52,429 nucleotides of DNA from Oscillospiraceae bacterium (lineage in GTDB: Bacteria > Bacillota > Clostridia > UMGS1840): NCBI GenBank assembly GCA_015068645.1, contig SVKD01000003.1, positions 88,471 through 140,899 of the forward strand, written 5' to 3'. Both the position numbers and the translations under genes were made by a program. The notes under the pieces were generated by a model. The model had not been told where the DNA came from. It searched no databases and was given only the letters and a program-made list of their open reading frames with translations. Below are positions 27,351 to 48,127 of the stretch, piece after piece (within the stretch, counting starts at the first letter, position 1; the number at the start of each line of letters is the position of its first letter).

Positions 27351-27351
27351 T

Positions 27352-28161: not shown

Positions 28162-28165
28162 ATAT

Positions 28166-28910: not shown

Positions 28911-31900
28911 TTATTTCACATACAGTTTGATGAGTTTTAAGATGTAATCTTTGGTGAAAAGTCCTTTTTCTACAGGGATTCTTAAATAAGCACCATGAAA
29001 GTCCACAAATTGTTCATAGGTCACGTAATCTTTAAAATCATCGTAGGTGTATAATCCGTAGGTTGTTACATCTTTTTGGAAGCTTTCGGTATCATAACGG
29101 AGTTTATCTCCCATCGGTACCCAGTTATAGAAATCATCCGGCGGTGCTACTGTCAAAAGCCCTTCGGCAAGGGCATTATAGTTTCCTGCAGAAGTTAAAG
29201 AATATGCTCCTGTTACTTCATAGGTTTTTTCTGCCTGATCCAAAGTAACCAGACGATATCCGTCTTCATCCATTTTCACAAAGGTGTGACCGATGTACTC
29301 ATCCATATTATCTACGGTGAGATACACATATTTGTTTAAATCATAGTCAAACACACCGTGTTCTGCAATTACTTTTAATATCGCACCGTCGGAGAAGGTC
29401 AGGTTTGCAACGGGATATTCATCCACGCCGTGATTAACCACCAGTGCCACATCTTTTGCTTCGGTCTGTCCGGTAAAGAAATTGTAGGTCAGGATGGTAT
29501 CTTCGGTGGTAATATCTTGGATTGCCTTTTTAGTGCCGTCTGCCATTGTGATTACGGTATCAGCGGTAAAGCAACCGTTATCCTCTGCTGCGGCTAATGT
29601 ACCTTCGCAGAAAGCGGAATAACTATACGGATTGGTTTTATCTTCTGCCACACTCCAGGTATGAGAGAAACTCAGTTTTTTGCCGTTTTTATCTTCAAAA
29701 GTATAGGACACAGGCACATTTCTTGCTGTGTTTCCGGTATTTACCAAACCGCCGGAGTTAGATGCCACAAAGAACAACTTGTTGGTTCCGTTTACGTCCA
29801 CCACAACGGGCATTGCAAACACTTTATTGGAAGAATGCACCTGACCACCCGTTACGGTTAAGATAAAGTCTCCGTTGTCGGGTGTATAAGTCCACACAGT
29901 GTCAGTGTCATTCTGCTTGCCCACATTTTCGGGAGTGAAATCAGCCAAAGAAACGGTTTTATACTGACTTTCCGCCACACTCCAATAACGAACCTGTAAC
30001 CCTTCTAAAGCAGGTGCCGCACCGCTCCAGGTGCTTCCTTTTTTAGTTGCCACGCAAAGACCTGTTCCCCAATCGGATGCCACTAAGGAAGGCGCATCTT
30101 TATTGGATTCGGTACCACTGATATACAGAGGATAGGTATAAGTCACGGTTTTATCAAAACTTTCGCCGTTTTCATTGTAGAAAATATTGTCAGTAACAGT
30201 TACATCATACATTTGGGTACCAACTGTTACAGGAATTTTTTTGGTAGTGTCCACTGCCACACCATCTTTTTGGACGGTGTAGGAAAGTTCTTTGCCATAT
30301 TTTTCTAAAGTGAATTTGCCAAAATCAAAGCTGTATGCACCACGGTCTAAATTCACGGTGAAGCGGTTAATCCAACCGGTTTCGTTTACATATTCTTTGG
30401 TCAGCACTTTGTTTTCATCAGTTTCCTCATAGGTTGCAGTTGCTAAAATATTGCCGTTTTTGGTGGAAGTATAGGTAGGATAAGTGGTTACTTCAGCATC
30501 TGTACCATTGGAATTTTTATAGGAGAACACCTTTACCGAAGTCATATCCAGCGTTTCATAGGGAACTTCCGCTTTATTCACACGATTATCATAAATCACA
30601 GGGTCGGAAAGCACAGGATTGGTTCCGTCTTCAATCATATAGATAAAGCCTAAATTTAAAGAATCACGGGTAACGCCATCCCGGTAGGTAACAGGGTGAA
30701 TATAGTCGGTCTGATTTAAGACATAATTCACCATAGACTGCCCTTCTGCAGGCACATAGGTTTTATATTCCTCGTTTGCCCAGGCATACTGAATGAGTTT
30801 TCCTTCTAAGGTAATGGGGGTAGAATTCCCTTCGGAATCCGCAATGGTGATTAAGCTTAAGCCCATTAAAGTTTTCGTAGTATCGTGAACAGTTGCGGTA
30901 ATGGGTTCCTGAATCAAGGTCACATCCCGCATGGTGAGACTGTTTGCCGCATTTAAGTGAATATTGGCAGCTGCACCACCATATACGGTGGTGTTATCCA
31001 ACTCTAAATCCCCTGCAGTCACATACAGTGCCGCACGTCCGCCTTCAATATAGGAATTTTTAATACTGCAATCACCTGAGGTCATTACTGCGCTTCGGAT
31101 ATTGTAATAACGGGTTTTGGTGCCATCAATCTGATTGGGAGTGGGGTCATCTTTTTTATTTGCTTCATACAGAATGGGGAACGGGAAATGAGGTACTTTG
31201 ATTCGCACGTTATCTAAATTACCGTTTTCCATGGTCACAAAAGCATAACCTCTGTCTAATGCTGCTGAGTCTGAAGAAGCGGTTAACGAAAAACCGTTGC
31301 CGTAGATGGTATGTCCGCCTGACACGACAAGCTGACCCATTCCGCAATCATTTAAGAGTACAATATCACGGTCGGTAGCGCTTGCACCCGATGTCACGTT
31401 ATAAGCATCCACCACTTCCAGATAAAGCTCGGTAGGTTTGGTGTTTTCCATATCATCGGTAACAGTTAATTTGATAATACCGATTCCCTGTGCCCAAATT
31501 GTTCTGTTTTGCCAGTCTGCTTCATTGGAAACATGAACGGTAACACCTGTATTGTCCATTGCTTCTGCCGTAATACTCACGTTACCAAGTTCGCCACCAT
31601 CGATGGCAGAAAACAGTTTATTTACAGCAACAGCGTTCTGATTCCCGATACGGTATAAATAAGAATCGGTATTGGGAAATACCACTTCAAATTTTTCCGT
31701 TAAGATGGGCGCATAGGTAATGGTTGCCGCAGGAAGTAAGGGACAGATGGTTTCTTCATCGGTCCAGCAGAACACTCTGAACTCTTCCGTATCGCCCACG
31801 GTAATGTTTTCTATGGGAATTTCTAAAGTATCTCCCGGCAGACCTCCCTTCACAGAAACGGGTTCCATCTTGATAAGCTTGCCGCTTTCTTGTTCATAAT

Positions 31901-32111
31901 GGCCCACAAACACCGAAGCCATTGCAGATCTGGGTGCTTGGACAGTTACTTTGGCTTTTAAAGTGGTAACACCGTCTAATGTGGTAATCATTTTGTTGGT
32001 TTCGGCATTATAAAACACAACACCTTCTGCTTCGCTTGCTCTTGCCACAATGGATGCAAGCAGAACTGCAACCATGGCAATTACCAGAATAAAGCTTACT
32101 ACTCGTTTCAT
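28911..32111 (-). CDS. Secreted Hint-domain surface protein, shortest paralog (1066 aa)
   Basis: Signal peptide (about 1-27), then a module of about 100 residues starting VVFYNAETNKMITTLDGV that also ends the phosphodiester glycosidase. Next is a YLYRIGNQN domain (about 150) and a beta-helix-like region (about 215-390, for example IKNSYIEGGRAALYV). Further beta domains follow, then an acidic linker and a 220-residue C-terminus starting at Cys847 (bases 28914-29573). This C-terminus reads as a Hint domain: CFTADTVITMADG, EHGVFDYDLN (His918) and AYSLTSAGNYNALAEGLL, the block before the usual His-Asn. Here TVAPP replaces His-Asn, and a conserved 75-residue tail follows. By analogy with Hedgehog, N-terminal thioester cleavage is plausible but splicing is not. 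No anchor motif. AAAGGAA precedes the ATG. Confidence 0.85.
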   Translation of the reverse strand: MKRVVSFILVIAMVAVLLASIVARASEAEGVVFYNAETNKMITTLDGVTTLKAKVTVQAPRSAMASVFVGHYEQESGKLIKMEPVSVKGGLPGDTLEIPIENITVGDTEEFRVFCWTDEETICPLLPAATITYAPILTEKFEVVFPNTDSYLYRIGNQNAVAVNKLFSAIDGGELGNVSITAEAMDNTGVTVHVSNEADWQNRTIWAQGIGIIKLTVTDDMENTKPTELYLEVVDAYNVTSGASATDRDIVLLNDCGMGQLVVSGGHTIYGNGFSLTASSDSAALDRGYAFVTMENGNLDNVRIKVPHFPFPILYEANKKDDPTPNQIDGTKTRYYNIRSAVMTSGDCSIKNSYIEGGRAALYVTAGDLELDNTTVYGGAAANIHLNAANSLTMRDVTLIQEPITATVHDTTKTLMGLSLITIADSEGNSTPITLEGKLIQYAWANEEYKTYVPAEGQSMVNYVLNQTDYIHPVTYRDGVTRDSLNLGFIYMIEDGTNPVLSDPVIYDNRVNKAEVPYETLDMTSVKVFSYKNSNGTDAEVTTYPTYTSTKNGNILATATYEETDENKVLTKEYVNETGWINRFTVNLDRGAYSFDFGKFTLEKYGKELSYTVQKDGVAVDTTKKIPVTVGTQMYDVTVTDNIFYNENGESFDKTVTYTYPLYISGTESNKDAPSLVASDWGTGLCVATKKGSTWSGAAPALEGLQVRYWSVAESQYKTVSLADFTPENVGKQNDTDTVWTYTPDNGDFILTVTGGQVHSSNKVFAMPVVVDVNGTNKLFFVASNSGGLVNTGNTARNVPVSYTFEDKNGKKLSFSHTWSVAEDKTNPYSYSAFCEGTLAAAEDNGCFTADTVITMADGTKKAIQDITTEDTILTYNFFTGQTEAKDVALVVNHGVDEYPVANLTFSDGAILKVIAEHGVFDYDLNKYVYLTVDNMDEYIGHTFVKMDEDGYRLVTLDQAEKTYEVTGAYSLTSAGNYNALAEGLLTVAPPDDFYNWVPMGDKLRYDTESFQKDVTTYGLYTYDDFKDYVTYEQFVDFHGAYLRIPVEKGLFTKDYILKLIKLYVK

Positions 32112-32177
32112 CTTTTTTGGTTCCTTTCTTTCATAGTATATTTTCGGAAAGTGTGGTTACATTTTTTCTGTAACTCC

Positions 32178-32225
32178 CCATTTTATTCTATTTATAATGT
32201 ACCATTTTCCAAAAGGGTTTGTCAA
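32178..32225 (-). promoter_or_regulatory. Promoter of the 1066-aa Hint protein with shared downstream motif
   Basis: Minus strand: TTGACA (32220-32225), 18 bp, TACATT (32196-32201). Five bp downstream lies TAGAATAAAATGG (32178-32190), identical to the same position in the 2113-aa paralog's promoter. The 319-bp gap 32112-32430 also holds the divergent lipoprotein promoter; I see nothing else in it. Confidence 0.75.
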
Positions 32226-32356
32226 GATTTTTTTCAATTTCCGGTATTTTTGCAGCAAAATGTGTGAAAACTGGATAAAAAAACATTAAAAATATGTGTT
32301 TTTTGCAGAAAAATACATTTTAATTTTACAGAACAGTAACATTTTTCATCGAAATA

Positions 32357-32385
32357 TTGACTTTTTTATTGATTTATGCTAAAAT
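32357..32385 (+). promoter_or_regulatory. Sigma-A promoter of the lipoprotein gene
   Basis: TTGACT (32357-32362), 17 bp, TAAAAT (32380-32385), about 45 bp before the ATG. Confidence 0.85.
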
Positions 32386-32430
32386 GGGAAAAAAATAGAA
32401 AGCATATGCTTAAAAAGGAGAAAAAAAACA

Positions 32431-33201
32431 ATGAAAAAATCAATCGCGCTTTTACTCTCCGCTACCATGTTAATCGGTTCCTCTATGGCATTAACCGGTT
32501 GTAAAGCGGAATTCACCGAAGACGGTGGCATCAAAATCACAGAAGACAAAAAAGTTGAAGACACCAACACTGCAACTGAAGTAACAACCGAAACCAAAAC
32601 TGATGAAGGTAACACTGTAGGAACTGCTACCGAAACCACCACACCCGCTGAAGAAACCAAAACTGCCGACGATACCAAATCCAACTCTGTAGCACCCACT
32701 GCTACTAAAACCGCAACCGGCGCAAGCACCTTAAACGTAAATGAAACCGTTACCATCGGTGACGTTATGGAATTAACCTTAGAATCCGCTGCTTGGACCG
32801 AAGAAATCGAACCTTCCAACACCTCTGCTAGCTACTATTCCACTATCGATGACAAAGAAGGCGAAAAATTCTTCGTTGTAAGAGGTAAAGTGAAAAACTT
32901 AGCAGGCGGCGACTTAGACCTGTCCTGGAAAGGCTTCAAAGGCGAAATGTTAATCAACGATACTTACAAATCTGATTTAAGCATTGAAGTTGAAAAATCT
33001 GATGGAACCGGCTTCTACGCTGATATCAAACCCTTACAGACCTTAAACGTTATTATTTACGCATCTATCTCTGATGAATTACAGGGCATGGCTGAAAGCG
33101 CTTCTGTAAACTTAAAATTCGTAAATGATGCTGAATACATCGATGAATACTTCTACGAAGATAAAGTTCCTTACAACGAATACAACATCTTATTCAAATA
33201 A
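32431..33201 (+). CDS. Surface lipoprotein of unknown function
   Basis: A 256-residue lipoprotein. The signal peptide MKKSIALLLSATMLIGSS is followed by lipobox LTGC, so Cys24 would be lipidated and the protein held on the outer membrane face. A Thr/Glu/Lys-rich disordered stalk (about 30-105) follows, then a beta-sandwich-like domain (about 108-240) containing GDVMELTLESAAWTEE and KFFVVRGKVKNLAGGDLDL. That pattern resembles DUF4352-type domains, although I am not certain of the family. AAAAAGGAG precedes the ATG. It lies between two Hint-protein genes on the opposite strand, with its own promoter and terminator. A role with those proteins is only suggested by position. Confidence 0.85.
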   Translation: MKKSIALLLSATMLIGSSMALTGCKAEFTEDGGIKITEDKKVEDTNTATEVTTETKTDEGNTVGTATETTTPAEETKTADDTKSNSVAPTATKTATGASTLNVNETVTIGDVMELTLESAAWTEEIEPSNTSASYYSTIDDKEGEKFFVVRGKVKNLAGGDLDLSWKGFKGEMLINDTYKSDLSIEVEKSDGTGFYADIKPLQTLNVIIYASISDELQGMAESASVNLKFVNDAEYIDEYFYEDKVPYNEYNILFK

Positions 33202-33216
33202 GAAATTCTTTTCATA

Positions 33217-33255
33217 AAAAAAATCCCGAATGCAATTTGCATTCGGGATTTTTTT
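33217..33255. terminator. Bidirectional intrinsic terminator
   Basis: TCCCGAATGCAA and TTGCATTCGGGA form a 12-bp inverted repeat around a single T, with A-tract and T-tract flanks. It ends the lipoprotein gene and, from the other side, the 2113-aa Hint gene. Confidence 0.93.
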
Positions 33256-33303
33256 ATGCTTTTTATTGTTTGTTTTTGGATATTTTGATTGATATACGTT
33301 TGC

Positions 33304-36300
33304 TTACTTCACATATAAATCAATCAGTTCCAAAATGTAATCCCAGCTAAAGATTCCTTTTTCCACGGGGATTTTTAAGTATGCGCCATTTAATTCGATA
33401 AACTGTTCGTAAGTAACATACTGAGAAAAATCATCGTAGGTGTATAAGCCGTAGGATTCGATGTCGTTTTGGAAAGCATCGGTATCGTAACGGAGTTTTT
33501 CGCCCATCGGCATCCAGTTATACAAATCATCGGGAGGTGCTACTGTCAAAAGACCTTCTGCCAAAGCATTGAAGTTTCCGGCAGAGGTTAAAGAATATGC
33601 ACCGATGGTTTCCGTTGTTTTTTCTGCTTTGTCTAAAGTAACCGTGGTATAGCCGTCTTCGTGCATCTTCACAAAGGTATGTCCAATGTATTCTGCCATA
33701 TTGTCCATGGTGAGGTACACATATTGGTTCAAATCATAATCAAACACACCGTGGTCTTCGATTACTTTTAATACCGTACCGTCTGAGAAGGTTAAGTTGG
33801 CAACGGGATATTCTGCTACGCCATGATTTACCACCAGCGCCACATCTTTCGCTTCCATTTCACCTGTAAAGAAATTATAGGTCAAAATGGAATCCTCAGT
33901 AGTAATCTCTTTGATAGCTTTCTTCGTGCCGTCTGCCATAGTGATTAAGGTATCTTCACTAAAGCAACCGCCACTTGAGGAAGCAGAAACAGTTACATTG
34001 GAAGCAGGCATACTAAAGGTATAGGTACCGGCTGTGCTTTCGCTTAGTAAAGTATTTCCGTTTCCATCGGTCACCTTCAGGGATTTACTGTTATTCTGAG
34101 AGAAGGAAACAGTCACGGTAAAGCTGTCACCGTAATATGCAGTTTGTCCGTTGGTCACACCGGTTACGGTTGCATTGGATTGAGAAACAGTGATGGTATA
34201 GGGTGTTTTGACCCACTGTGCATATAAAGTGATGCTTTCATCAGGGGTGTAAGATGCACCTGCACCGCCGATTTTGGTGCCGCCCTCAGCTTGGGTAAAC
34301 CAACCCTGGAAGGTATATCCTGTGAGAGTGGGAGTGGGTAAGGTTAAGGGTGCGCCCATATAGGTCTGAGAATCGGTGGAACAGCTTCCGCCGTTGGCAT
34401 CATAAGTCACCACGGAAGGTGCTTCCCAATGGGCATACAAGGTGATATGTGCGGTAGGAAGATAGGTGTCATTTCCCATACCGATGAAAGTACCGCCGTT
34501 TTCTTCGGTATACCAGCCGGCAAATGCTCTTGCTGTGTCAGAGGGTAAGGGCAAGGTGAGAACAGTTCCCACATAATCCATAGAGGTGGGTGTTACGTTT
34601 CCGCCCGTTGGGTTGTAAGTTACGGTATAAACAGGGCTCCAGCCTGCATAGAAGGTGGTATTTTTGGTGGGATTTAAAATCACACCGTTCAACCCATAAA
34701 GCTTGGTACAAGCGGCATCTTCATACCAGCCTGTGAACCAATAACCCGATTTTTCTGGTAAGGGAAGAACGATTTGTTCTCCATTATAGTTTATAGTTTC
34801 GGGAGTTACGCTGCCACCCGTAGCATCCAAGGTCACGGTACAAGGTTTGCCCCACTGTGCATAGAGAGTAACATCACCGCCGGGAGTATATAAATCCCCT
34901 GCTCCGCCGACACGGTTACCCTGATAGGGAGCATCATACCAGCCGGCAAACACATACCCATAACGAGTGGGATTGGGTAAAGTCAATGTATTATAATGAT
35001 TGGTCTGATAACCAACACTCTGTCCGCATAAGCCCCCGTTGGCATCATAGGTCACGGTAGCAGACACGGTTGCAGAGAAAGTACCGGTGGGTTTGGTGAA
35101 ACTTGTCGCATCCACCCCGGACTTACCAAAGTTTACGGAACCCGAATTGATGACTACCCCGTTATTGCCGGTAAATTCGTAGTCATACACTCTCCAGATC
35201 TGACCGCTGGAAGCAGTACCACCGTCGTTTACTACATAGAAAATGTTTTTGTTGGTTTTAATCGAGCCGGAATGGGTAGAACCGCCTGCCGTTGCTTTGA
35301 CGTCCAGGTCAATTTTTAACACACCGCCATCCACCAGTTTTACGGTGATGATATGATAGCCTTTGGCTTCCCCGGTGGTATTTAAGTTTTCGATGGTGGC
35401 AGATACCACTTTTTGATAGGCGTTATCATCACCGTCAAATCTTAAATAACGGGTATCGCCCATATAGTCATAGATTTTTAAGCCTGCCAAGAAAGGCATA
35501 AACTGAATTTTATCGCCCAAAAGTGCTTTGTTGTAGTAAATCACCTGTTTCGTGGAATCAAACGAAAATTCCGCATTGGGGGTAGACGTGTCTTTTAATG
35601 CCACAGAAACCGGTAATTTTTTGGTGTAAACCACCGTTTGTGCCACACTTTCTCCGTTTTCGTTATAGAATATGGTATCGGTTAAGGTGTAGGTCACAAT
35701 GTATTCTTTTGTTTCGGATAGGGTGAGTTTTCCGTTGGTTAAAGAAACTTCATCACCGTTTTCATCGGTGCAGGTAATTTGGGTCTGCAAATCCTGACCG
35801 CTATACTTATTGATGTCAAATATTTTAGTAAAATCAATCTCAAAAGATTCTCCTGCAGGAATCATCACTTTTAAGGTGTCAGAATCCATATAGCAATATT
35901 TGTTGCAACCGTCCGTGTTGGCGATATACTGACCGCCCAAGGTGGAATTGGGATAAATCTGAGGTTCATATAATCCGTTTCCACCGCAGATGTACGGAAT
36001 CACGCCGTCAGTTTCGGGATTGTAACGGTAATCGGCAGTAACGGCACTGCCTGCCGCCACGGTATACACTCTGCCGGTTGCTCCCAAAAAGCTTACCTTG
36101 TTTAACGCATAAGGAATTTCCGCCTTGTTGGTACGCTCATCAATGATGTTGGCAGGATAAGAGGTGATGTATGCCATTCCCAAGTTTACAGTATTTTTAC
36201 CGTTTATGGTATGCTGATATGCACTTTCCTTTAATGCTACCTCCAACACGCTCTTAGCATAACTGTTGGAAACAGAAGAATGATCGCTGGTTACCCAGTT

Positions 36301-39300
36301 ATATTGTCTGAGGTCCCCTTTTAAACGAATATAGGGATTGGATTTGGTATCCGCATCCCCCACTGCAATCCCAAGACCCATCACGTTTTTGGAAGTATCG
36401 TAAGAAGAGGTGGTCATATACTGAATGGTGGTCACATCTTCTAAGGTAACAGTGAATTCGTCGGAACTTCTTACAATCTGAATGTTGGCAAAGCTTCCGC
36501 ATTCGGTAACGGTGTTTTTCACGGTGGCATTTCCGCCACCGATAAAAATGTTACATCTTGCACCATAAATATAACAGTTAGAAATGGTGGAATCATCAGT
36601 TAAAAGGACTGCAGATTTAAAGTAGTCATAACCCGATGCATCGGAGGTATATAAATAAGATTCGGGGAAAATATCGCAGATAATTCTGGTGTTATCTAAA
36701 ATACCGCCTTTGGATACATTGATAAAACCGGTGGTCAGCAGCTTAAGGCCGGGATTACCTTTTCCTGCACAGGTTACGGTAAAGCCGTTGCCGTAAAAAG
36801 CATAACCGTTGGACACGTTAAAGGTGCCGGAAATATCGTTTAATAATACCACGTTATTGGCAGTTGCCGATGTGGCAGTGGTCACGTTCTTCGCATCCAC
36901 AATTTCTAGGTACAAAGAATACGGAGTACTTTCTTCATCCGAAATGGTCACTTTTACCACGCCGGTACCGCTGAATTTTAAGGTAGACTTGGTCCAATCG
37001 GTGTTTTTGGTATAGGTAGCAGAAACCAAAGGAGTGTTTGCCAGAGGTTCCACTGCTACGTTTACGGTACCAACACTCACACCGTCTAAAGCTTTAAAGA
37101 TGCTTCCCAATGCCACGGTATTCTGATTGCCGATTCTATATAAATAATCTTCGTGATTTACAAATTTGGTATCAAATTTTGCAATCTGAGGAGGTGCTAA
37201 TTCTGTTACAGTTACGGTAGCAGAGGTTGCGGTACAGTAAAAACCGTCAGTAATGGTAACGGTATAAGTGCCGCCACCGCTAAAGGTGACAATACCGTTA
37301 TCCCAGGTTGCATCCTTCGTGAAGGAAGAAGCACCGGTTACAGACACAGTAGCATCTTTAATCAGATTACCGTTTGCGCTGAACAGCTCTCCTAAAGTTT
37401 TCGTTACTGCAACACCTTGTTCAGTTTCATAAGCTAAATCAGATTTTGCAGTCCATTTGTCAACTGCAGCAGGTTCTTTTACCGTAACGGTAGCGGTTGC
37501 TACGTTACAGTAGAAGTTATCGGTTGCGGTAACGGTGATGGTACCTAAACCTTCAACAGTTACTTTACCGTCTGCATAGGTACCGCCGGTTACAGTAATT
37601 TCTTTCACTTCATAGCCGTTGGTATCAAATAAATCTGCAAAGTCTACGGTGTACTTACCGCTTTCAATAGTAGCTAAAGTATGAGTTACTTCGATATCTT
37701 TGCCAATGAATTTGTCTACGTTTGCTGCATCGTTTACAACGATAATAGCAGTTGCTTCGTTACAGTAGAAGTTATCAGTAACAGTTACGGTGTAGGTACC
37801 AATGGTTCCGGGAACGGTAATAACGCCATCAGCATAGGTACCGCCATTATCTACAGTTACTTCTACTGTTTTGATAATTGCACCGTCAATTGCGGTGAAC
37901 AGGTCAGCGAAGTTTACGGTCTGGTCTTTGCCAACAGTATCAACGGTTAAGGTGATTTCTTTATTAGTTGCATTCCATTTATCAATGTTTGCAGGCTCGT
38001 TTACGGTTACGGTTGCGGTTGCAACATTACAGTAGTAATTATCGGTTACAGTGATCGTTTTTTTGCCAAAACCGTCCACGGTGATTGTGCCGTCTTCGTA
38101 AGTTGCACCGGTGACAGTCAGGTTATCCATATCTACGGGAACGCCGTCGATTACGGTGAACAGCTCGGCAAAGTCATAGGTTACGGTATTTGCTTCCGCG
38201 GTTTCTAAGGTGTGAGTATAAGTCACATCTTTACCAATGAATTTGTCGATGGAAGGAATGTTTTTGGGTGTGAAGGTGTAGGTTCTGCCAATTACGTAAG
38301 ATTCGTCTTCGTTATTGGGGTTATACATCTTCAGTGCCAGAGTTACTTCTAAATCGGGATTCGCTACTAAAAATTCAGGTGCGAAGAAGATCCCGCAATC
38401 AAAATCCTTTACCCGTTCATACACTTCCTGATAGGTGTATTTGAGACCGGGTTTTCCGTAGGCTTCTGCCGCGGTTTCCATAATTTTTAAGGGAGTACCG
38501 GGGGTCAAGGTGATAGCCATTTTGGGCACACTTACCCAAGCAGGACTCCAGGAATCGTACTGACCTGCCAGATAGCCGTCACAGGTTCCGTCTGAATGGA
38601 AGGTAGCAGTCTTATTGATCATGATTTCATAATCTGCATACCAGTCTCCAAACACTGCCAACTGAGATTCTGTAGAAGGGTCTGCTTTGAAGTTTAATGC
38701 AAAGGTTAAATCTACATCCTGGATTGCTTCTACATCCAGCTCGGTAACCGTTGCTGTGGGTAAGCAGAATTCAAAGTCTTTTTCTGCGATCGTATAGATA
38801 TTGCCATTTTCAGGATTTACCAGTACCAGTGCTAAGGAAACCTCCAGACCATCATTTTCTTTTAAGAAATCATGGGAGAAGTTTACGCCACAGTCAAAAT
38901 CTTTTACGGTTTCTGCTACATCCCTGTAAGTCACGGTTAATCCGGCAGCATCCATAATGGAAACAGGTGTATTTGCAGTTACCGCTAAATCGGTTGCCGG
39001 AATTTTTACAAATTCAGGACCGAATTCATCATACTGGCCGATTAAGTAACCGTCACGGGTACCGTCGGCATTGAAGGTTGCATCTTTGTTCATTTTGAAT
39101 ACAAAGTCTGCTTTCCAGTCGCCGTAGAATGCTAACTGTTCATCAGTTACTTCATCTGCTGTGAAGTTCAAAGCAAAATCCGCATCTTCTGCTTCGATTT
39201 CGGTAACAGTGGCTGTCGGGAGTTCCTCCAGCAGGTCACGTTCGATAATGCCGGGATTGGTTAACGGAACTAAAGAATCAGTACCCTCCCAGCAGAATAC

Positions 39301-39645
39301 TTTTAATAATTCGGTATCTGCTACCGAAATTTCTCTGCTGTATTGGTTTTCTTCCCCTGCCACAGCAGAAACTGTGGTAATAGGCTCTGTTTTACAAAGC
39401 ACACCGTCTGCAGTGTAGTGAGAAACAATCACCTGCGCCGAATTCTTTTCGGTTGGGGTAAAGGTGATGTTGGCAGTCACCGTATCGCATCCGTCCAAAG
39501 CGGTAATCACTTCTCCCCCTTCATTATAAAAGGAAACGCTTCCTAAATCGGAAGCCGTTGCAGCAAGGGCAGAAAATACCCCCAAAAGCAACGTAAGTGC
39601 AGTCAAAAGGCAAAGTAGTTTTTTTATGTTTTTCTTGGTTTTCAT
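33304..39645 (-). CDS. Secreted Hint-domain surface protein, middle paralog (2113 aa)
   Basis: Signal peptide (about 1-31), then the shared FYN module (about 35-137). Two repeats of about 155-165 residues beginning PTATVTE follow (about 141-462), then four Ig-like repeats each ending in a TVTDNFYCN-type motif (463-815). The YLYRIGNQN domain (about 836), a beta-helix-like region (about 930-1130) and four InlB-type repeats (1530-1812, for example GWYDAP...TLYAQW) come next, then a Ser-rich linker. The 220-residue Hint C-terminus (bases 33307-33966) starts at Cys1894 (CFSEDTLITMADG), with His1965 and NFNALAEGLLTVAPP; I count 175 of 220 residues identical to the 1066-aa paralog. AAAGGAC precedes the ATG. 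No SLH, LPXTG or other anchor is visible. Confidence 0.86.
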   Translation of the reverse strand: MKTKKNIKKLLCLLTALTLLLGVFSALAATASDLGSVSFYNEGGEVITALDGCDTVTANITFTPTEKNSAQVIVSHYTADGVLCKTEPITTVSAVAGEENQYSREISVADTELLKVFCWEGTDSLVPLTNPGIIERDLLEELPTATVTEIEAEDADFALNFTADEVTDEQLAFYGDWKADFVFKMNKDATFNADGTRDGYLIGQYDEFGPEFVKIPATDLAVTANTPVSIMDAAGLTVTYRDVAETVKDFDCGVNFSHDFLKENDGLEVSLALVLVNPENGNIYTIAEKDFEFCLPTATVTELDVEAIQDVDLTFALNFKADPSTESQLAVFGDWYADYEIMINKTATFHSDGTCDGYLAGQYDSWSPAWVSVPKMAITLTPGTPLKIMETAAEAYGKPGLKYTYQEVYERVKDFDCGIFFAPEFLVANPDLEVTLALKMYNPNNEDESYVIGRTYTFTPKNIPSIDKFIGKDVTYTHTLETAEANTVTYDFAELFTVIDGVPVDMDNLTVTGATYEDGTITVDGFGKKTITVTDNYYCNVATATVTVNEPANIDKWNATNKEITLTVDTVGKDQTVNFADLFTAIDGAIIKTVEVTVDNGGTYADGVITVPGTIGTYTVTVTDNFYCNEATAIIVVNDAANVDKFIGKDIEVTHTLATIESGKYTVDFADLFDTNGYEVKEITVTGGTYADGKVTVEGLGTITVTATDNFYCNVATATVTVKEPAAVDKWTAKSDLAYETEQGVAVTKTLGELFSANGNLIKDATVSVTGASSFTKDATWDNGIVTFSGGGTYTVTITDGFYCTATSATVTVTELAPPQIAKFDTKFVNHEDYLYRIGNQNTVALGSIFKALDGVSVGTVNVAVEPLANTPLVSATYTKNTDWTKSTLKFSGTGVVKVTISDEESTPYSLYLEIVDAKNVTTATSATANNVVLLNDISGTFNVSNGYAFYGNGFTVTCAGKGNPGLKLLTTGFINVSKGGILDNTRIICDIFPESYLYTSDASGYDYFKSAVLLTDDSTISNCYIYGARCNIFIGGGNATVKNTVTECGSFANIQIVRSSDEFTVTLEDVTTIQYMTTSSYDTSKNVMGLGIAVGDADTKSNPYIRLKGDLRQYNWVTSDHSSVSNSYAKSVLEVALKESAYQHTINGKNTVNLGMAYITSYPANIIDERTNKAEIPYALNKVSFLGATGRVYTVAAGSAVTADYRYNPETDGVIPYICGGNGLYEPQIYPNSTLGGQYIANTDGCNKYCYMDSDTLKVMIPAGESFEIDFTKIFDINKYSGQDLQTQITCTDENGDEVSLTNGKLTLSETKEYIVTYTLTDTIFYNENGESVAQTVVYTKKLPVSVALKDTSTPNAEFSFDSTKQVIYYNKALLGDKIQFMPFLAGLKIYDYMGDTRYLRFDGDDNAYQKVVSATIENLNTTGEAKGYHIITVKLVDGGVLKIDLDVKATAGGSTHSGSIKTNKNIFYVVNDGGTASSGQIWRVYDYEFTGNNGVVINSGSVNFGKSGVDATSFTKPTGTFSATVSATVTYDANGGLCGQSVGYQTNHYNTLTLPNPTRYGYVFAGWYDAPYQGNRVGGAGDLYTPGGDVTLYAQWGKPCTVTLDATGGSVTPETINYNGEQIVLPLPEKSGYWFTGWYEDAACTKLYGLNGVILNPTKNTTFYAGWSPVYTVTYNPTGGNVTPTSMDYVGTVLTLPLPSDTARAFAGWYTEENGGTFIGMGNDTYLPTAHITLYAHWEAPSVVTYDANGGSCSTDSQTYMGAPLTLPTPTLTGYTFQGWFTQAEGGTKIGGAGASYTPDESITLYAQWVKTPYTITVSQSNATVTGVTNGQTAYYGDSFTVTVSFSQNNSKSLKVTDGNGNTLLSESTAGTYTFSMPASNVTVSASSSGGCFSEDTLITMADGTKKAIKEITTEDSILTYNFFTGEMEAKDVALVVNHGVAEYPVANLTFSDGTVLKVIEDHGVFDYDLNQYVYLTMDNMAEYIGHTFVKMHEDGYTTVTLDKAEKTTETIGAYSLTSAGNFNALAEGLLTVAPPDDLYNWMPMGEKLRYDTDAFQNDIESYGLYTYDDFSQYVTYEQFIELNGAYLKIPVEKGIFSWDYILELIDLYVK

Positions 39646-39778: not shown

Positions 39779-39814
39779 GGTTTTTCGTTATTTTCACTGT
39801 CTCTCCACCGAAAC

Positions 39815-39851
39815 AAAAACTCCCTGCAGAGAACTCTGCAGGGAGTTTTTT
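39815..39851. terminator. Bidirectional intrinsic terminator
   Basis: AAAAACTCCCTGCAGAG pairs with CTCTGCAGGGAGTTTTT. It begins 14 bp after the 2756-codon gene's stop on the minus strand and precedes the promoter of the next minus-strand gene. Confidence 0.9.
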
Positions 39852-39865
39852 CATACGAAAACGTA

Positions 39866-42800
39866 TTACGGATTTACATATAAGCCAATTAACTCAACAA
39901 TGTAATCCCAGGTGAAGATTCCTTTTTCTACAGCAATCTTTAAGTATGCGCCGTTTAATTCGATAAACTGTTCTTCAGTTACCAAACCGCCGAAATCTTC
40001 TAAGGTGTATAAACCGTAGGTTTCGATATCTTTTTGGAAGCTTTCGGTATCGTAACGGAGTTTTTCACCCATTTCAATCCAGTTATAGAAACCAGCAGGA
40101 GGAGCAAGTGTCAGCATACCTTCTGCAAATGCGTTGGCATTGCCTGCAGAGGTTAAGGAATAGATTCCCAGGGTTTCTTCAGTTTTTTCTGCTTTCACTA
40201 AGGTTACCAAGTCATAACCTTCCGCATTTTCTTTCACAAAGGTGTGACCAATGTATGCATCCATATTATCTATGTTAATGTATACATAATCGTTTAAGTC
40301 ATAGTCAAACACACCGTGGTCACCAACGATTCTTAAGGTAGTGCCGTCGGAGAAGGTTAAGTTTGCCACTGCGTAAGTATCCACGCCGTGAGAAATTAAG
40401 AGTGCCACATCTTTTGCTTCGTAACAGCCTGTAAAGAAGTTGTAGGTTAAGATGGTATCATCCTTGGTAACATCCTTCATTGCTTTTTGGCTGCCGTCAC
40501 CCATGGTGATTAAGGTATCTTCGGTAAAGCAGCTACCGCTAGAAGATGCGGTTACGGTAACGGTCTGCGCCGGCATGTTAAAGGGTGAATTATAGGTAGT
40601 GCCATCTGCACCCTTAATGGTGGTGGAACGGCTGTTACTCTGAGAGTAGGTTACGTCAACAGTTACCTGAGTGCCGTAGGGAATGTTAATGGAACCGTTA
40701 TTAGCAACGGTGGTATTGTTAATTTTTACAGTTGCATTTGTAGCAGAAACTTTTACAGTGTAGCTACCAATCGTCCACTGTGCATATAAGGTAATGTTGG
40801 AAGACGGAGTGTATTCTGCGCCTGCATTCCCAACCTTGGTGCCACCGGATGCCGCAGTATACCAGCCGTTGAAGGTGTAACCGGTTCTGGTGGGGTTGGG
40901 TAAAGTAAGAGCAGTTCCTTCGTAAGTTGCAGAAGCAGGACTTACGCTACCGCTGTTTGCATTGTAGGTCACGGTGTAGGAAATTGCTTCCTGCCACTGT
41001 GCATACAGGGTGATTGCGCCGCCCGGATGATAACCTTCACCCGCATCACCGATTTTTTCGCCACCGGTGGGTGCAGTGTACCAACCTAAGAACCAGTAAC
41101 CGTCACGACTTGCATTGGGTAAGCTTAATGCAGTGCCGTTATAGGTCTGAACGGTAACAGAAGCAGTACCGCCGTTTGCGTCATAACTTACATCACAAGG
41201 TTTGCCCCACTGTGCATATAAGGTGATATTTGCGGAAGGAGCATAGGAATCTCCTGCACCGCCCACACGGGTTCCGCCGGTAGGAGCAGTGTACCAACCT
41301 GCAAACAGGAATCCGCCACGTTTGGGAGTGGGCAGAGTTACGGAAGTTGCAGCTGATGTTGCATAACCAATGGTCTGTACACAGGAACCGCCATTTGCAT
41401 CATAGGTTACCGTTGCTTTAATGGTGGTACTAAAGTTTCCGGAAGGAGTGGAAACACTGGAACCGCTGGAATTAAAGGTCTGCTGAGCAGAGGTAATGGT
41501 TACCCCGTTGTTACCGGTAAAGGTGTAGTAATCCACATACCAGTATGCAGAGGTGGTGGTGGAAGCAGAGTTACTGGTACCACCGCCGTTTACAAAGTAA
41601 ACAGTGTTGTCTTTGGTTTTAATAGAACCGGTATAGGTGGAAGCACCGCCACTGTTTGCACGTGCTAAGAATCTGGTGTTAATCACACCGCCGTCAGTCA
41701 GTTTTACTTCTACCAACGCTTTGTTGCTGGAATAGCCGGTGATGGTGATGGATGCAATTTTGTTGAAATCAGAATCACCGTTGAAACGTAAGTATTCGCT
41801 CTGACCGTTGTGGTCATAAATCTGTAAACCTTTTAAGAAGGGTAAATACTGTTTTACATCGCCTAAGGTAGGTTTATAGTAACCCATTTTCTGGCTGTCT
41901 TTGTTGAATGCAAAACGTGCATCGGGAACTGCATTGTCTTTTAAGGAAACAGATAAGGTAATCGGGAAGGTATAAGTTACGGTATCTGCCACAACCTGAC
42001 CGTCTTTAGCATAGAACAAAGTATCGGTTACGGTGTAGGTTACGGTGTAGGTTCCTTTGTTGGTTAAGGAAACGCTGGTTCCGGATACAGGAACTGCCAC
42101 GCCGTTTTCATCCACACAGGTAATGGTCATACCTAAATCTTCGCCGGTGTATTTTTCAATATTTACCAGACCTGCTAAATCTACCACTTTGGTATCACCG
42201 TCGGTGAACAGAATGTTCACGGTTTTGCCGGTGGTGTATAAATATTCGTCACAACCTTCCACGTTTTCGATATACTGTCCGCCTAAATCATCGTCAAATT
42301 TAAACTGGGGTTTATACAGGTCAGTTGCGATGGTTTTGTCTGCATTTTCGTAATCAGAGAAAATCTGGGTGTCGACTGCACCGGATAAGGAGTATGCCTG
42401 ACCGGAAACACCGCTCACGGAAATACTATCCAAAGCATAGGGCAAGCCGGTCTGATTGTCGATGATTGCAGTTTTGGTATTTAAGTATACAATACCCATA
42501 TTTACGCTGGTTTGACCATTCACACTGTGCTGATATTTGGAAACAGCCAATGCGCTGTTGATAGCAGATCTTGCATAAGAATCGCTTACTGCATTCATGT
42601 CATCAGCATTCACCCAGTTATACTGTTTTAAGTTACCTTTTAATACCAGGTTCGGGTTGGTAGAAGTGTTGGGACCAACAATCACACCAAAGCCCAGCAT
42701 GGTGTTGTTTTTCAGGCTGTCGTTTGCATAAACGGTGGGTTTGTTCTGATACTGAATGGTAGTAACGTCTTCTAAGGTTACGGTGTATTCACTACCGCTT

Positions 42801-45800
42801 TCAATCTGCATATTGGAAAGTACGCCTGCTTCCAGAATGGTATCCTTCACGGTCACATTACCGGCACCAACATAGATGTTGTTTCTTGCGCCGTAAATAT
42901 GACAGTTGGAAATGGTGGAATCACCACTTACCGCTACTGCGGAAAGCTGATAGTAGTATCTGATTTTAGAAGGATCTTTTGAATCCACTTCATAGTAATC
43001 TTCCACCTGGTTGGAGTACAGTGCTGCAATGGGGAAGATGGCTGCACGAACTACGGTGTTTTCTAAAGTACCGCCTTCTTTTACGGTGATAATACCCTGT
43101 TTTAAACCGCTACCTAATCCTAAGTAACGTCCGTCATTGGTATTGCTTACGGTAAAGCCGTTGCCATAGAAGGTGTTATCACCGGATACGGTAAAGCCAT
43201 TTAAGGTACTGCAATTATTAACCAATACGGTATTGCCGGAAATGGTACCGTTTACGCCGGTTACGTTGGTTGCATCCACAACTTCTAAGTACAGTTCGGT
43301 GGGTAAGCAAGCAGGATCAGCTGTGTCCACGATAGACACTTTTACCACGCCGGTACCGTTAAATTTCAGAGTAGTTGCAGTAATATCTGCAGTTACCTGA
43401 GATGCTTCCACAGGAGTTACAGTTACGGTTGCATTGGTGGGAACAAAACCGTCAACAGGAACGAAGATTTTTTCAATCGCAACTTCGTTTTGGTTACCGA
43501 TACGGTACATAAAGTCGGTTTTGTCAAATTTCTTCACGAATTTTTCTTCGGGAATAATGTCGGGTTCTTCCACGATAACAGTTGCAGTTGCAGTGTTACA
43601 GTAGAAGTTATCGGTTACGGTTACGGTGTAAGTGCCTGCACCGGTAAAGGTGAACACGCCATTTTCGTAAACGCCGTCACCGCCTACGGTGAGTTCTTTT
43701 ACAGTATAGCCGTTATTGGTGAACAATTCATCAAAGGTTACAGTTACGGTGTTTTCGCCGTAAACTAATTTTTTGGAAACGGTTTGACCGGTCCATTTAT
43801 CAACATTAGCAGGTTCTTTTACGGTAATGGTTGCAGTTGCTTTGTTACAGTAGAAATTATCAGTTGCGGTAACGGTGAAGGTACCGATACCGGTAACAGT
43901 GATTTTGCCGTCTGCATAAGTTGCACCTTCCACGGTGATGTCTTTTACATCATAACCGTTATTGGTGAACAGTTCGTCAAAGTTGTAAGTTACAGTGTTA
44001 CCTTCGATAGTATCTAAGGTATGAGTGTAAGTTACAGCTTTACCGGTGAACTTGTCAACATTTGCAGGTTCATTTACGGTAACAGTTGCAGTTGCAATGT
44101 TACAATAGAAGTTATCGGTTGCGGTAACGGTGTAAGTACCTGCTTTTCCGGGTACGGTTACAACGCCACCTGTAAAGCTTGCTCCGTTATCTACGGTTAC
44201 GGAAATCGCTTTGATTACTACACCTTCAACTGCGGTGAATAAATCTTCAAAGTTTACGGTCTGATCCTGACCAACAGTATTAACGGTTAAGTCAATGGTT
44301 TTGTTGGTAGCAGTAAATTTATTTACATTTGCAGGAGCGTTTACGGTAACAGTTGCAGTTGCAATGTTACAGTAGAAGTTATCGGTTGCGGTAACGGTAA
44401 TAGTTCCTAAACCGGTAACAGTGATTTTACCGTCTGCATAAGTTGCGCCTTCCACGGTAATATCTTCCGCTTTTACATTTGCACCTTCAACGGTTTCAAA
44501 CAGGTCTGCAAAATTGTAAGTTACAGTGTTACCTTCGATAGTATCTAAGGTATGAGTGTAAGTTACGGTGTTACCGGTGAATTTGTCCATCGCAACAGGA
44601 GCATTTACAACTACAGTTGCAGTTGCAGTGTTACAATAATAGTTATCGGTTACGGTGATGGTTTTGGTACCGAAACCTTCTACGGTGATTTTGCCGTCTG
44701 CATAAGTTGCGCCGGTTACGGTGATGTCTTCCATTTTCACGGGAACGCCGCCGATGGTGTCAAACAGCTCAGCAAAATCATAAGTTACGGTATTTGCTTC
44801 CACGGTGTCTAAGGTGTGATTATAGGTCACAGCTTTACCGATGAATTTGTCGATAGAAGGAATGGTTTCAGGAGTGAAGGTGTAGGTTCTGCCAACCACG
44901 TAAGATTCGTTTTCGTTATTGGGATTATACATCTTCAGTGCCAGAGTTACTTCTAAGTCGGGGTTAGCAACTAAAAATTCGGGAGTAAATGCTAAACCGC
45001 AGTTAAAGTCTTTTACAGAAGTAACGATATCTGCGTAAGTCAGTTTCAGACCGCTCTGACCCATGAGAGCTGCTGCAGTTTCCATTACTCTTACAGGAGT
45101 ATTTGCTTCTAAGGTTGCATCTTCAAAGGGAACGGATACCCAGTTTTTGCTCCATGCGTCATACTGACCGGAGAGGAAACCGTCTGCATTGCCGTTTGCA
45201 TTGAAGGTTGCGGTTTTGTTTACGGTTAATTCGTAATCTGCATACCAATCACCGAACATCAGGAGCTGTTCCTGAGTAGATTCGTCTGCTTTAAAGTTTA
45301 ATGCGAAATCTAAATCAACGCCTTCGATTGCTTCAACGTCCAGTTCAGTAACGGTTGCAGTGGGCTGTTTCCAGGTTCTGGTGATTGCATCACCGATTAC
45401 ATAGGATTCAGCGGGATTTAAGGGATTGTAGATTCTTAATTCCACGGTAGCGGATACGCCATCGTTTGCTGCTAAGAACTCTTTAGAGAAGTTGATACCG
45501 CAATCAAAATCTTTTACGGTTTCAACGATATCACGGTAGGTAACATCCATTCCTGCAGATTCTAACACGTTAATAGTGGTATTTGCAGGAACTACTAAAT
45601 CGGTTGCAGGTAATTTTACCCATTCTGCGCCGAATTCGTCATACTGACCCAGTAAGTAACCATCTTTTTCGCCGTTTGCGTTCAGGGCTACATCTTTGGA
45701 AATGGTTACAGCATAATCAGCTTTCCAGTTACCGAAGGTTTTTAACTGTTCTTCGGTTGCTTCGTTTGCTTTAAAATTCATTGCAAAGTCTGCTTCCACA

Positions 45801-48127
45801 TCCAGGTTGTTGGTGTCTAAGTGAGTTACGGTTGCGGTGGGTAAAGTCCAGTTATAAGTATAAACATCGCCGATGATATAAGATTCTGCTTCGTTTGCAG
45901 GGTTATACATCTTCAGGCACAGGGTTACTTCCAGACCGTCGTTTGCTGCTAAAAATTCGGGAGAGAAATAAATACCGCAGTCAAAGTCTTTTACTTTGTC
46001 ATACACTTCCTGATAGGTATATTTTAATCCCGGTTTACCGTAGGTTTTTGCAGCAGTTTCCATAATCTTTAAGGGAGTGCCGGGAGTTAAGGTGATATCC
46101 ATTTTCGGAACCTGTACCCAAGCCGGGCTCCAGGAATCGTACTGACCTGCCAAATAACCATCTTCGGTGCCGTCTAAATTAAAGGTTGCAGTTTTATTGA
46201 TGGTGATTTCGTAATCTGCATACCAGTCGCCAAACATTGCAAGCTGAGATGCTGTGGAAGGATCCGCTTTGAAGTTTAACGCATAAGTTAAGGGAACATC
46301 CTTAATATCTGCCACATCGAGTTCGGTTACGGTTGCGGTGGGCAGGGTGAAATCGAATGCTTTTTCTGCGATGGTGTATGCTTCGCCGGTAACAGGATTT
46401 ACGATTACCAGTGCTAAGGATACTTCTAAACCGTCATTTGCTTTTAAGTATGCTTCGGTAAAGTTAACACCGCAATTAAATTCTTTTACGGTTTCAACTA
46501 CGTCACGGTAGGTTACATCCATACCTGCTGCATCCATAACGGAAACAGGTTCTCCTGCAGTCACACTCAGGTCGGTTGCCGGAATTTTTACAATTTCGGG
46601 ACCGAATTCGTCATACTGACCAACTAAGTAACCGTCTTTGGTGCCGTTGGCATTGAAGGTTGCATCTTTGTTGGTAGTAAATACAAAGTCTGCTTTCCAA
46701 TCGCCGAAGGTTGCTACCTGAGATTCGGTTGCTTCGTCTGCTTTGAAGTTTAATGCGAAGTCTGCTTCTGCTACGTCAATTTCGGTAACAGTTGCAGTAG
46801 GCATGGTAAAGTCAAATGCTTTTTCCGCGATGGTGTATGCTTCGCCGGTAACAGGATTTACGATTACCAGTGCTAAGGATACTTCTAAACCATCATTTGC
46901 TTTTAAGTAGCTATCTGCAAAGTTTACGCCGCAGTCGAAATCTTTAATGGTTTCAACTACATCGCGATAAGTAACGTTCATGCCAGCACTTCCCAAAACA
47001 TTTACGGGAACGCCTGCGGTAACGGTTACATCCGCTGCGGGAACTTTTACAAATTCGGGACCGAATTCGTCATACTGACCAACTAAGTAACCGTCTTTGG
47101 TGCCGTTGGCATTGAAGGTTGCATCTTTGTTGGTGGTAAATACAAAGTCTGCTTTCCAATCGCCAAAGGTTGCTACCTGAGATTCGGTTGCTTCGTCAGC
47201 TTTAAAGTTTAATGCAAAGTCTGCTTCTGCTACGTCAATTTCGGTAACAGTTGCAGTAGGCATATTAAAGTCAAATGCTTTTTCTGCGATGGTGTAGGTA
47301 TTGCCGTTTTCGGGATTTACCAGTACCAGTGCTAAGGATACTTCTAAGCCATCATTTGCTTTTAAGTAAGCATCTGCATAGTCAACACCACAGTCGAATT
47401 CTTTTACGGTTTCAACCACATCACGGAAGGTAACATTCAGACCTGCTGCATCCATAATGGATACGGGAGTACCTGCAGTAATTGCGAAATCGGTTGCAGG
47501 AACTTTTACAAATTCAGGGCCGAATTCATCGTACTGACCAACTAAGTAACCGTCTTTAGTGCCGTTAGCATTGAAGGTTGCTGCTTTGTTGGCAGTAAAT
47601 ACAAAGTCTGCCTCCCAATCACCGTAGAATGCCAACTGTTCATCAGTTACTTCGTCTGCAGCGAAGTTTAACGCAAAGTCTGCATCGGTAGAAATTGCAG
47701 TCACGGTTGCGGTGGGAAGTTCTTCTAATAAATCACGTTCAATCGTGCCCACATTGGTTAAAGGAGCGAGAGTTGCTTCGTCCCAAGCGAACACTTTCAA
47801 TAAATCGGTATCGGCTACCGAAATTGCAGAGGTAGTAAAGTTCGCAACTACGCCTGCAGTCATACTAACAGAATCAATAGATTCCATTTTTTCAAGTTTA
47901 CCGGTTTCGATATCGTAATGAGCTACCATTACGCTTGCGGTACCGGTTTTACTTGCGGTGAAGGTCACGTTGGCATAAAGGTTGTCCACGCCATCCAACT
48001 GAGTTGCTACGCTGTTATCTTCAGCATTGTAGAACGCAATTGTACCAAGCTCATTTGCATAAGTTGCAAATGTGAACATGCTTGCCAACAGGGACATTGC
48101 GAGAAGAAGACTGAATAGTTTCTTCAA
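39866..48127 (-). CDS. Secreted Hint-domain surface protein, longest paralog (about 2753 aa)
   Basis: Signal peptide MKKLFSLLLAMSLLASMFTF and onward. I prefer the TTG at 48127 because AAAGGAAG is ideally spaced for it; a GTG at 48136 overlaps that ribosome site. Next is the FYN module (about 27-130), then six repeats of 153-167 residues beginning PTATVT (about 136-1085) and five Ig-like repeats ending in YCN motifs (1085-1520). The MYRIGNQN domain (about 1542), a beta-helix-like region (about 1600-1790) and three InlB-type repeats (about 2235-2450) follow. The Hint C-terminus (bases 39869-40531) starts at Cys2533 with His2604 and keeps the conserved tail, ending LYVNP. Repeats 2 and 3 are nearly identical in DNA. 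No wall anchor is visible. Likely a long stalk displayed or released through Hint chemistry. Confidence 0.86.
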   Translation of the reverse strand: MKKLFSLLLAMSLLASMFTFATYANELGTIAFYNAEDNSVATQLDGVDNLYANVTFTASKTGTASVMVAHYDIETGKLEKMESIDSVSMTAGVVANFTTSAISVADTDLLKVFAWDEATLAPLTNVGTIERDLLEELPTATVTAISTDADFALNFAADEVTDEQLAFYGDWEADFVFTANKAATFNANGTKDGYLVGQYDEFGPEFVKVPATDFAITAGTPVSIMDAAGLNVTFRDVVETVKEFDCGVDYADAYLKANDGLEVSLALVLVNPENGNTYTIAEKAFDFNMPTATVTEIDVAEADFALNFKADEATESQVATFGDWKADFVFTTNKDATFNANGTKDGYLVGQYDEFGPEFVKVPAADVTVTAGVPVNVLGSAGMNVTYRDVVETIKDFDCGVNFADSYLKANDGLEVSLALVIVNPVTGEAYTIAEKAFDFTMPTATVTEIDVAEADFALNFKADEATESQVATFGDWKADFVFTTNKDATFNANGTKDGYLVGQYDEFGPEIVKIPATDLSVTAGEPVSVMDAAGMDVTYRDVVETVKEFNCGVNFTEAYLKANDGLEVSLALVIVNPVTGEAYTIAEKAFDFTLPTATVTELDVADIKDVPLTYALNFKADPSTASQLAMFGDWYADYEITINKTATFNLDGTEDGYLAGQYDSWSPAWVQVPKMDITLTPGTPLKIMETAAKTYGKPGLKYTYQEVYDKVKDFDCGIYFSPEFLAANDGLEVTLCLKMYNPANEAESYIIGDVYTYNWTLPTATVTHLDTNNLDVEADFAMNFKANEATEEQLKTFGNWKADYAVTISKDVALNANGEKDGYLLGQYDEFGAEWVKLPATDLVVPANTTINVLESAGMDVTYRDIVETVKDFDCGINFSKEFLAANDGVSATVELRIYNPLNPAESYVIGDAITRTWKQPTATVTELDVEAIEGVDLDFALNFKADESTQEQLLMFGDWYADYELTVNKTATFNANGNADGFLSGQYDAWSKNWVSVPFEDATLEANTPVRVMETAAALMGQSGLKLTYADIVTSVKDFNCGLAFTPEFLVANPDLEVTLALKMYNPNNENESYVVGRTYTFTPETIPSIDKFIGKAVTYNHTLDTVEANTVTYDFAELFDTIGGVPVKMEDITVTGATYADGKITVEGFGTKTITVTDNYYCNTATATVVVNAPVAMDKFTGNTVTYTHTLDTIEGNTVTYNFADLFETVEGANVKAEDITVEGATYADGKITVTGLGTITVTATDNFYCNIATATVTVNAPANVNKFTATNKTIDLTVNTVGQDQTVNFEDLFTAVEGVVIKAISVTVDNGASFTGGVVTVPGKAGTYTVTATDNFYCNIATATVTVNEPANVDKFTGKAVTYTHTLDTIEGNTVTYNFDELFTNNGYDVKDITVEGATYADGKITVTGIGTFTVTATDNFYCNKATATITVKEPANVDKWTGQTVSKKLVYGENTVTVTFDELFTNNGYTVKELTVGGDGVYENGVFTFTGAGTYTVTVTDNFYCNTATATVIVEEPDIIPEEKFVKKFDKTDFMYRIGNQNEVAIEKIFVPVDGFVPTNATVTVTPVEASQVTADITATTLKFNGTGVVKVSIVDTADPACLPTELYLEVVDATNVTGVNGTISGNTVLVNNCSTLNGFTVSGDNTFYGNGFTVSNTNDGRYLGLGSGLKQGIITVKEGGTLENTVVRAAIFPIAALYSNQVEDYYEVDSKDPSKIRYYYQLSAVAVSGDSTISNCHIYGARNNIYVGAGNVTVKDTILEAGVLSNMQIESGSEYTVTLEDVTTIQYQNKPTVYANDSLKNNTMLGFGVIVGPNTSTNPNLVLKGNLKQYNWVNADDMNAVSDSYARSAINSALAVSKYQHSVNGQTSVNMGIVYLNTKTAIIDNQTGLPYALDSISVSGVSGQAYSLSGAVDTQIFSDYENADKTIATDLYKPQFKFDDDLGGQYIENVEGCDEYLYTTGKTVNILFTDGDTKVVDLAGLVNIEKYTGEDLGMTITCVDENGVAVPVSGTSVSLTNKGTYTVTYTVTDTLFYAKDGQVVADTVTYTFPITLSVSLKDNAVPDARFAFNKDSQKMGYYKPTLGDVKQYLPFLKGLQIYDHNGQSEYLRFNGDSDFNKIASITITGYSSNKALVEVKLTDGGVINTRFLARANSGGASTYTGSIKTKDNTVYFVNGGGTSNSASTTTSAYWYVDYYTFTGNNGVTITSAQQTFNSSGSSVSTPSGNFSTTIKATVTYDANGGSCVQTIGYATSAATSVTLPTPKRGGFLFAGWYTAPTGGTRVGGAGDSYAPSANITLYAQWGKPCDVSYDANGGTASVTVQTYNGTALSLPNASRDGYWFLGWYTAPTGGEKIGDAGEGYHPGGAITLYAQWQEAISYTVTYNANSGSVSPASATYEGTALTLPNPTRTGYTFNGWYTAASGGTKVGNAGAEYTPSSNITLYAQWTIGSYTVKVSATNATVKINNTTVANNGSINIPYGTQVTVDVTYSQSNSRSTTIKGADGTTYNSPFNMPAQTVTVTASSSGSCFTEDTLITMGDGSQKAMKDVTKDDTILTYNFFTGCYEAKDVALLISHGVDTYAVANLTFSDGTTLRIVGDHGVFDYDLNDYVYINIDNMDAYIGHTFVKENAEGYDLVTLVKAEKTEETLGIYSLTSAGNANAFAEGMLTLAPPAGFYNWIEMGEKLRYDTESFQKDIETYGLYTLEDFGGLVTEEQFIELNGAYLKIAVEKGIFTWDYIVELIGLYVNP
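44870..47720 (-). repeat. Six tandem in-gene repeats of about 459-500 bp
   Basis: Coding repeats of the longest Hint protein, each starting with a PTATVT motif near 47720, 47262, 46803, 46343, 45842 and 45362. Matching points in units 2 and 3 (for example 46601/47060 and 46371/46830) are exactly 459 bp apart and the DNA is almost identical over long stretches. Later units are more diverged and slightly longer. Confidence 0.88.

Follow-up and report, generated by a model that had tools for sequence, protein, structure and literature searches.

The Hint fold and the first step of its chemistry are already known. In Hedgehog, the Hint domain forms a thioester and a helix-loop-helix, the sterol recognition region (SRR), directs the adduct; without the SRR only cleavage takes place (PMC7242414, PMC9163320). 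According to PMC7242414, no protein other than Hedgehog has a Hint thioester that cholesterol intercepts, and nothing clearly homologous to its recognition region exists in any of the domains of life. B-type BIL domains provide a precedent without splicing, N-terminal cleavage being reported for them in PMC7765530. Buerglin described in 2008 a subgroup of secreted bacterial Hint proteins (Myxococcus, Photorhabdus, Yersinia), some with signal peptides and with a Hint region at the C-terminus whose length is Hog-like (PMC2362128).

We analysed a 52,429-nt stretch of DNA, here called the window, from Oscillospiraceae bacterium (UMGS1840; GCA_015068645.1, SVKD01000003.1 positions 88,471-140,899, forward strand), a Clostridia bacterium of gut type whose own genome is labelled G000. 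Three large exoproteins encoded in the window end in a 220-residue module, a Hint domain followed by a helical tail. The layout of the module proteins is that of Hedgehog: signal peptide, passenger, Gly/Ser linker, Hint and obligate tail. As in the Hedgehog Hog domain (Hint plus SRR/ARR), the Hint is C-terminal in a secreted precursor, Cys1 follows a small residue, the block-B His is at position 72, the C-terminal Asn is absent and a helical region of 50-100 residues follows. Unlike Hedgehog, the module has no SRR homology that we could find, lacks the TxxH Thr and the SCYA Cys, and is bacterial. Bacteria as a rule do not contain cholesterol.

Like BIL domains, the module combines a Hint fold with variable bacterial exoproteins, and its closest solved relative by profile is a ciliate BIL2 domain (6y75). 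Its motif pattern fits the one-line definition of type B given in PMC7765530 (all intein motifs but the C-terminal), a comparison made with that definition only. In contrast to type A it has no C-terminal His-Asn, and in contrast to both types it carries an obligate conserved tail, none being described for either in the literature examined. With class 1 inteins it shares the fold, Cys1 and the block-B His, but it has neither His-Asn nor a +1 nucleophile and is found at the ends of exoproteins and not within conserved enzymes. Polymorphic toxins of the PT-HINT type are likewise exported and have a Hint close to their C-terminus, but there variable toxin domains follow instead of a conserved tail; the PT-HINT profile matched 3 of 15 members, with a best E of 6.6e-4. 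A polymorphic toxin was ruled out since what follows the Hint is a conserved region and not a toxin. The subgroup of Buerglin, compared by description only, has signal peptides (in some members) and a Hog-like length in common with the module but is not from Clostridia. In the open-access literature, short of the older BIL-type papers, we found no description of the obligate tail, the passenger range or the phage link, and no study of Hint modules carried by gut exoproteins or by tail fibres; it is possible that part of the family was noticed earlier.

The locus and its three exoproteins

All three genes are on the minus strand. Exoprotein 1 (28911..32111, 1066 aa) consists of a signal peptide, an N-domain of ~100 aa, a YLYRIGN beta-helix-like passenger (core by profile match at 30642..31697, G000:C3:119112-120167), the Hint domain (29136..29573, residues 847-992, with Cys847 as Cys1 and His918 as block-B His) and the tail (28914..29135, residues 993-1066). 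Exoprotein 2 (33304..39645, 2113 aa) has a signal peptide, N-domain, repeats, a YLYRIGN core (profile match, 36175..37179), four List_Bact repeats, Hint (33529..33966, Cys1894 as Cys1) and tail (33307..33528). Exoprotein 3 (39866..48136, 2756 aa, GTG start) has a signal peptide, N-domain, repeats, a YLYRIGN core (profile match, 42488..43546), three List_Bact repeats, Hint (40094..40531, Cys2536 as Cys1) and tail (39869..40093). The first-pass annotation gave the same lengths for the first two proteins; its figure of ~2753 aa for the third corresponds to a start three codons after the GTG at 48136 and was corrected.

Other features claimed in that annotation were confirmed. The three N-termini are signal-peptide-like by sequence, and the near-constant 220-residue C-termini are 69-80% identical to one another, against only 33-59% for the passengers. 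Cys1 (residues 847, 1894 and 2536, the last being 2533 in the earlier numbering) is preceded by G, G and S, and the quoted motifs C-F-x-x-D-T-h-I-T-M-x-D-G, [ED]HGVFDYDLN and YSLTSAGN-x-NA-h-AEG are all present. The exopolysaccharide cluster reported to adjoin the three genes is real (15297..28858, plus strand) and encodes a sugar transferase, glycosyltransferases, EpsG, a flippase, a phosphodiester glycosidase, CpsB, Wzz and a CpsD-like ATPase. The similarity among the three modules is far beyond chance, since the module profile, at E 1e-49 to 1e-106, matches relatives over their full length on exoproteins that differ elsewhere, and the within-genus dN/dS is ~0.1.

Between the genes for proteins 1 and 2 lies a small gene for a putative lipoprotein (32431..33201, plus strand; lipobox by sequence), for which a Pfam search gave no significant match. 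The C-terminal ~100-aa domain of the phosphodiester glycosidase (22373-26548) is the N-domain that opens the three Hint proteins. Two further paralogues that share the N-domain and the repeats are interrupted by contig ends (L183 at the start of G000:C2, L184 at the end of G000:C6). Since these run off the contigs, the genome probably encodes more than three such proteins, with C-termini outside the assembled contigs.

Hint fold, obligate tail and active site

A Hint domain had been proposed for this C-terminus, and both a profile search and a structure prediction of the 220 residues gave a Hint fold. In a search of PDB sequences with a profile of 15 modules, the ciliate BIL2 domain (6y75) was matched over positions 2-145 with an E of 4.9e-13, and Hedgehog (1at0) with one of 4e-4. 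AlphaFold2, given 13 sequences from the window and relatives, modelled the module with a pLDDT of 92.6 and a pTM of 0.88. The predicted fold matches BIL2, Hedgehog and inteins. Compared using VIA, the model aligned with 6y75 over 137 residues (Z 19.0, rmsd 2.1), with the DnaB intein 1mi8 over 136 (Z 18.7, rmsd 1.9) and with 1at0 over 138 (Z 18.3, rmsd 1.9); a Clostridium thermocellum BIL structure reached Z 17.4 (Foldseek/VIA). All structural matches by either program were confined to residues 1-145. While the constant C-terminus stood, its treatment as one Hint unit did not: residues 1-146 are the Hint, an assignment that homology and the model make safe, and residues 147-220 are the helical tail. 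No module reached the curated Pfam or NCBIfam cut-offs, which are library thresholds and not a feature of the Hint fold; Hint and intein N-terminal matches were sub-threshold only and began at Cys1 or a few residues before. Against PF01079 the window proteins in full length scored below cut-off (E 7e-4 to 0.02) and the best module member gave E 2.3e-8; TIGR01445 was likewise below cut-off on the module.

The tail, the last ~75 residues, is modelled as four helices, and the whole 220 residues as one confident unit. The high pTM of the whole module suggests a fixed packing of the tail against the Hint. The 72-residue tail alone was modelled less well (pLDDT 80) and had no PDB match by Foldseek; no kinship with the Hedgehog SRR was found in sequence or fold. 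When 391 genomes of the class were searched with the tail alone, 20 matches were obtained in 13 genomes, all 20 on Hint modules, the same as those already recovered with the full profile. The sole additional Hint match, in genome G045, was partial and tail-less. Among these 391 genomes the tail is thus never separated from the Hint, i.e. it is obligate, and in 28 of 30 modules it is also the end of the protein.

In an alignment of these 30 modules, whose pairwise identity goes down to ~30%, both Cys1 and His72, the block-B His, are present in 30/30. The residue before Cys1 is Gly or Ser in 23/30, often closing a Gly/Ser run. Thr is found in none of the 30 at position 69 (the Thr of TxxH), which is Ile or Val and once Tyr, and Asn in none at position 143 (Asn in BIL2), which is Ala, Pro, Ser, Thr or Gly. 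Position 48, nearby and at most a candidate counterpart of the Hedgehog general base Asp46, is His in 19/30 and Asp in 6/30. None of the 30 modules has, at its aligned end, the C-terminal His-Asn that splicing inteins have. The N-S acyl shift machinery is therefore kept and the C-terminal splicing machinery lost; since Cys1 and the block-B His are invariant and His-Asn is absent, the module could make a thioester but should not splice. A splicing intein was ruled out, as both His-Asn and a +1 nucleophile are missing. We regard Cys1-dependent cleavage as probable.

Passengers, module exchange and phage relatives

The commonest passenger is the beta-helix-like protein with the YLYRIGN signature. 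Others are secreted subtilases (L042, L045), a Big_2 protein with a type-IV-pilin-like N-terminal helix (L050, L051) and a 4500-aa ORF whose N-terminus is lipobox-like (L046). A 3500-aa protein with a C-terminal membrane helix (L016, 2083-12582) has two internal modules, at residues 340 and 1788. In this protein and in L106:4436-7033, modules are inside beta-helix proteins whose sequence continues past the tail. A 267-aa ORF without a clear signal peptide (L015:7993-8793) has ~40 residues followed by a complete Hint-tail module; it resembles a peptide precursor, the short leader of which would be the passenger.

The module is scattered over the class, in 14 of 391 genomes and 10 of 222 genera, and none was found in 387 other genomes sampled from the phylum outside the class. 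Within genera its dN/dS is about 0.06-0.27, mostly ~0.06-0.2, in those comparisons that were computable; the module is under purifying selection. The orthologue of protein 3 in G003, a genome of the same genus, has a passenger 85% identical to that of protein 3 but a module only 37% identical. Blocks of 50 residues are 76-100% identical, mostly 85-100%, until ~100 residues before Cys1. The module of this orthologue is 80% identical to one from G217 (family f71), with a grouping support of 100/99, while window module 3 shares 89.5% identity with the module carried by another G003 gene. Since the orthologue keeps its passenger and carries a module of another family, these comparisons indicate that the module is a shuffling cassette exchanged as a unit between passengers. 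A dedicated partner gene was rejected, since an all-against-all comparison of flanking ORFs revealed no conserved partner shared beyond a few relatives.

Relatives are also found on viral contigs, with the module at or near the C-terminus. The full module with its tail (tail E 1e-20) is on an 823-aa protein encoded directly after terminase and portal (L103:6225-8693, also L104 and L105). Hint proteins are encoded behind the tape-measure gene in L108 (6498-8939) and L113 (6441-8939), and one in L119 (6999-8624) has a tail-fibre-like N-terminus; unlike in L103, the tails of these three are different or diverged. Of the viral relatives, 47/47 have Cys1 and the aligned His. The secreted beta-helix protein of L106 is close to L016, and L106 may be host-derived.

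Possible function of the module

Hedgehog, in which a C-terminal helical region next to the Hint chooses the acceptor, is the precedent for the explanation that we tentatively favour, a self-processing cassette of the Hog-like (Hedgehog-like) kind. In the exported protein, Cys1 would attack the preceding carbonyl, mostly of Gly or Ser and often at the end of a Gly/Ser-rich linker; assisted by the invariant block-B His, the bond between passenger and module would become a thioester, and without a C-terminal His-Asn or +1 nucleophile splicing could not follow. The tail, packed on the Hint, would have a role like that of the Hedgehog sterol/adduct recognition region, positioning or targeting the acceptor for attack on the thioester. 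Once cut off, the passenger would have its new C-terminus passed to a surface acceptor, or to water by default. The lost TxxH Thr, the missing kinship with the SRR, the uncertain placing of an Asp46 counterpart and the lack of a conserved partner gene are points against this cassette, and the internal modules of L016 and the L015 ORF are at odds with a device that is C-terminal and at the surface throughout. We consider true ligation of the passenger to an acceptor rather unlikely. We are equally doubtful of the wider proposal of a prokaryotic counterpart of Hedgehog processing, in which a mobile Hint and recognition-tail cassette would transfer the C-termini of exported proteins, bacterial and in some cases phage, to a particular acceptor that the tail selects, for sortase-free covalent display or adhesion.

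Alternatively, the Hint may cut itself off by thioester hydrolysis, the tail doing no more than stabilising or timing the cut, and the passenger may simply be secreted or matured with nothing attached. Phage-fibre C-terminal chaperone domains remove themselves after folding in a comparable way, and many of the passengers here are fibrous (beta-helix, repeats). Relatives occur in phage tail or structural cassettes, where there is no cell envelope, subtilase passengers would benefit from a maturation step, and N-terminal cleavage is reported for B-type BIL domains. However, a conserved and inseparable tail of 75 residues is not obviously needed for hydrolysis alone, and thiol-induced cleavage survives deletion of the corresponding region of Hedgehog (PMC7242414). 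We consider such self-release less likely than the Hog-like cassette.

The first-pass annotation proposed that release from, or joining to, something at the surface by Hint chemistry takes the place of a missing SLH or LPXTG anchor; in the joining form, the passenger C-terminus would be attached to a nucleophile of the wall or exopolysaccharide. None of the three window proteins indeed has an SLH, LPXTG or membrane anchor, no sortase was matched in the own genome, an exopolysaccharide cluster adjoins in the window and, in G003, the array has a CpsD-like gene next to it. In addition, a YLYRIGN beta-helix relative in G057 lacks the module and has in its place a helix of pilin type at the N-terminus. 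As a general rule, however, anchor substitution was rejected. Since passengers already bearing a lipobox (L046), a pilin helix (L050, L051) or a membrane helix (L016) also carry the module, it is not simply an anchor; it is carried as well by subtilases and by phage proteins, and the latter need no wall anchor. Moreover, the exopolysaccharide neighbourhood is not seen beyond the genus, large anchor-less exoproteins also occur in these genomes, and SLH is in wide use in the own genome (64 matches). An anchoring role is therefore improbable. Least probable is an inactive Hint serving only as a structural or binding domain, which the lost TxxH Thr might suggest but which agrees poorly with Cys1 and His72 strictly invariant in modules as little as ~30% identical, with the aligned residues kept in the 47 viral relatives and with a Gly/Ser linker that stops exactly before Cys1.

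If the Hog-like cassette is correct, this bacterial Hint, compact and never parted from its recognition-like tail, would give a tractable test of how a Hint chooses its acceptor, on passengers that include adhesin-like proteins, proteases, a structural protein of a phage and a pilin-like protein. The module could also be a sortase-free means to cut or conjugate exported proteins. The whole of this Hint family sits below the cut-offs of curated libraries.

Elsewhere in the window, a tyrosine-recombinase-like gene, recognised by its sequence, is found at 11671-12273; its copy in G003 (L039:4922-5800) is 71% identical and lies two genes from the Hint array.
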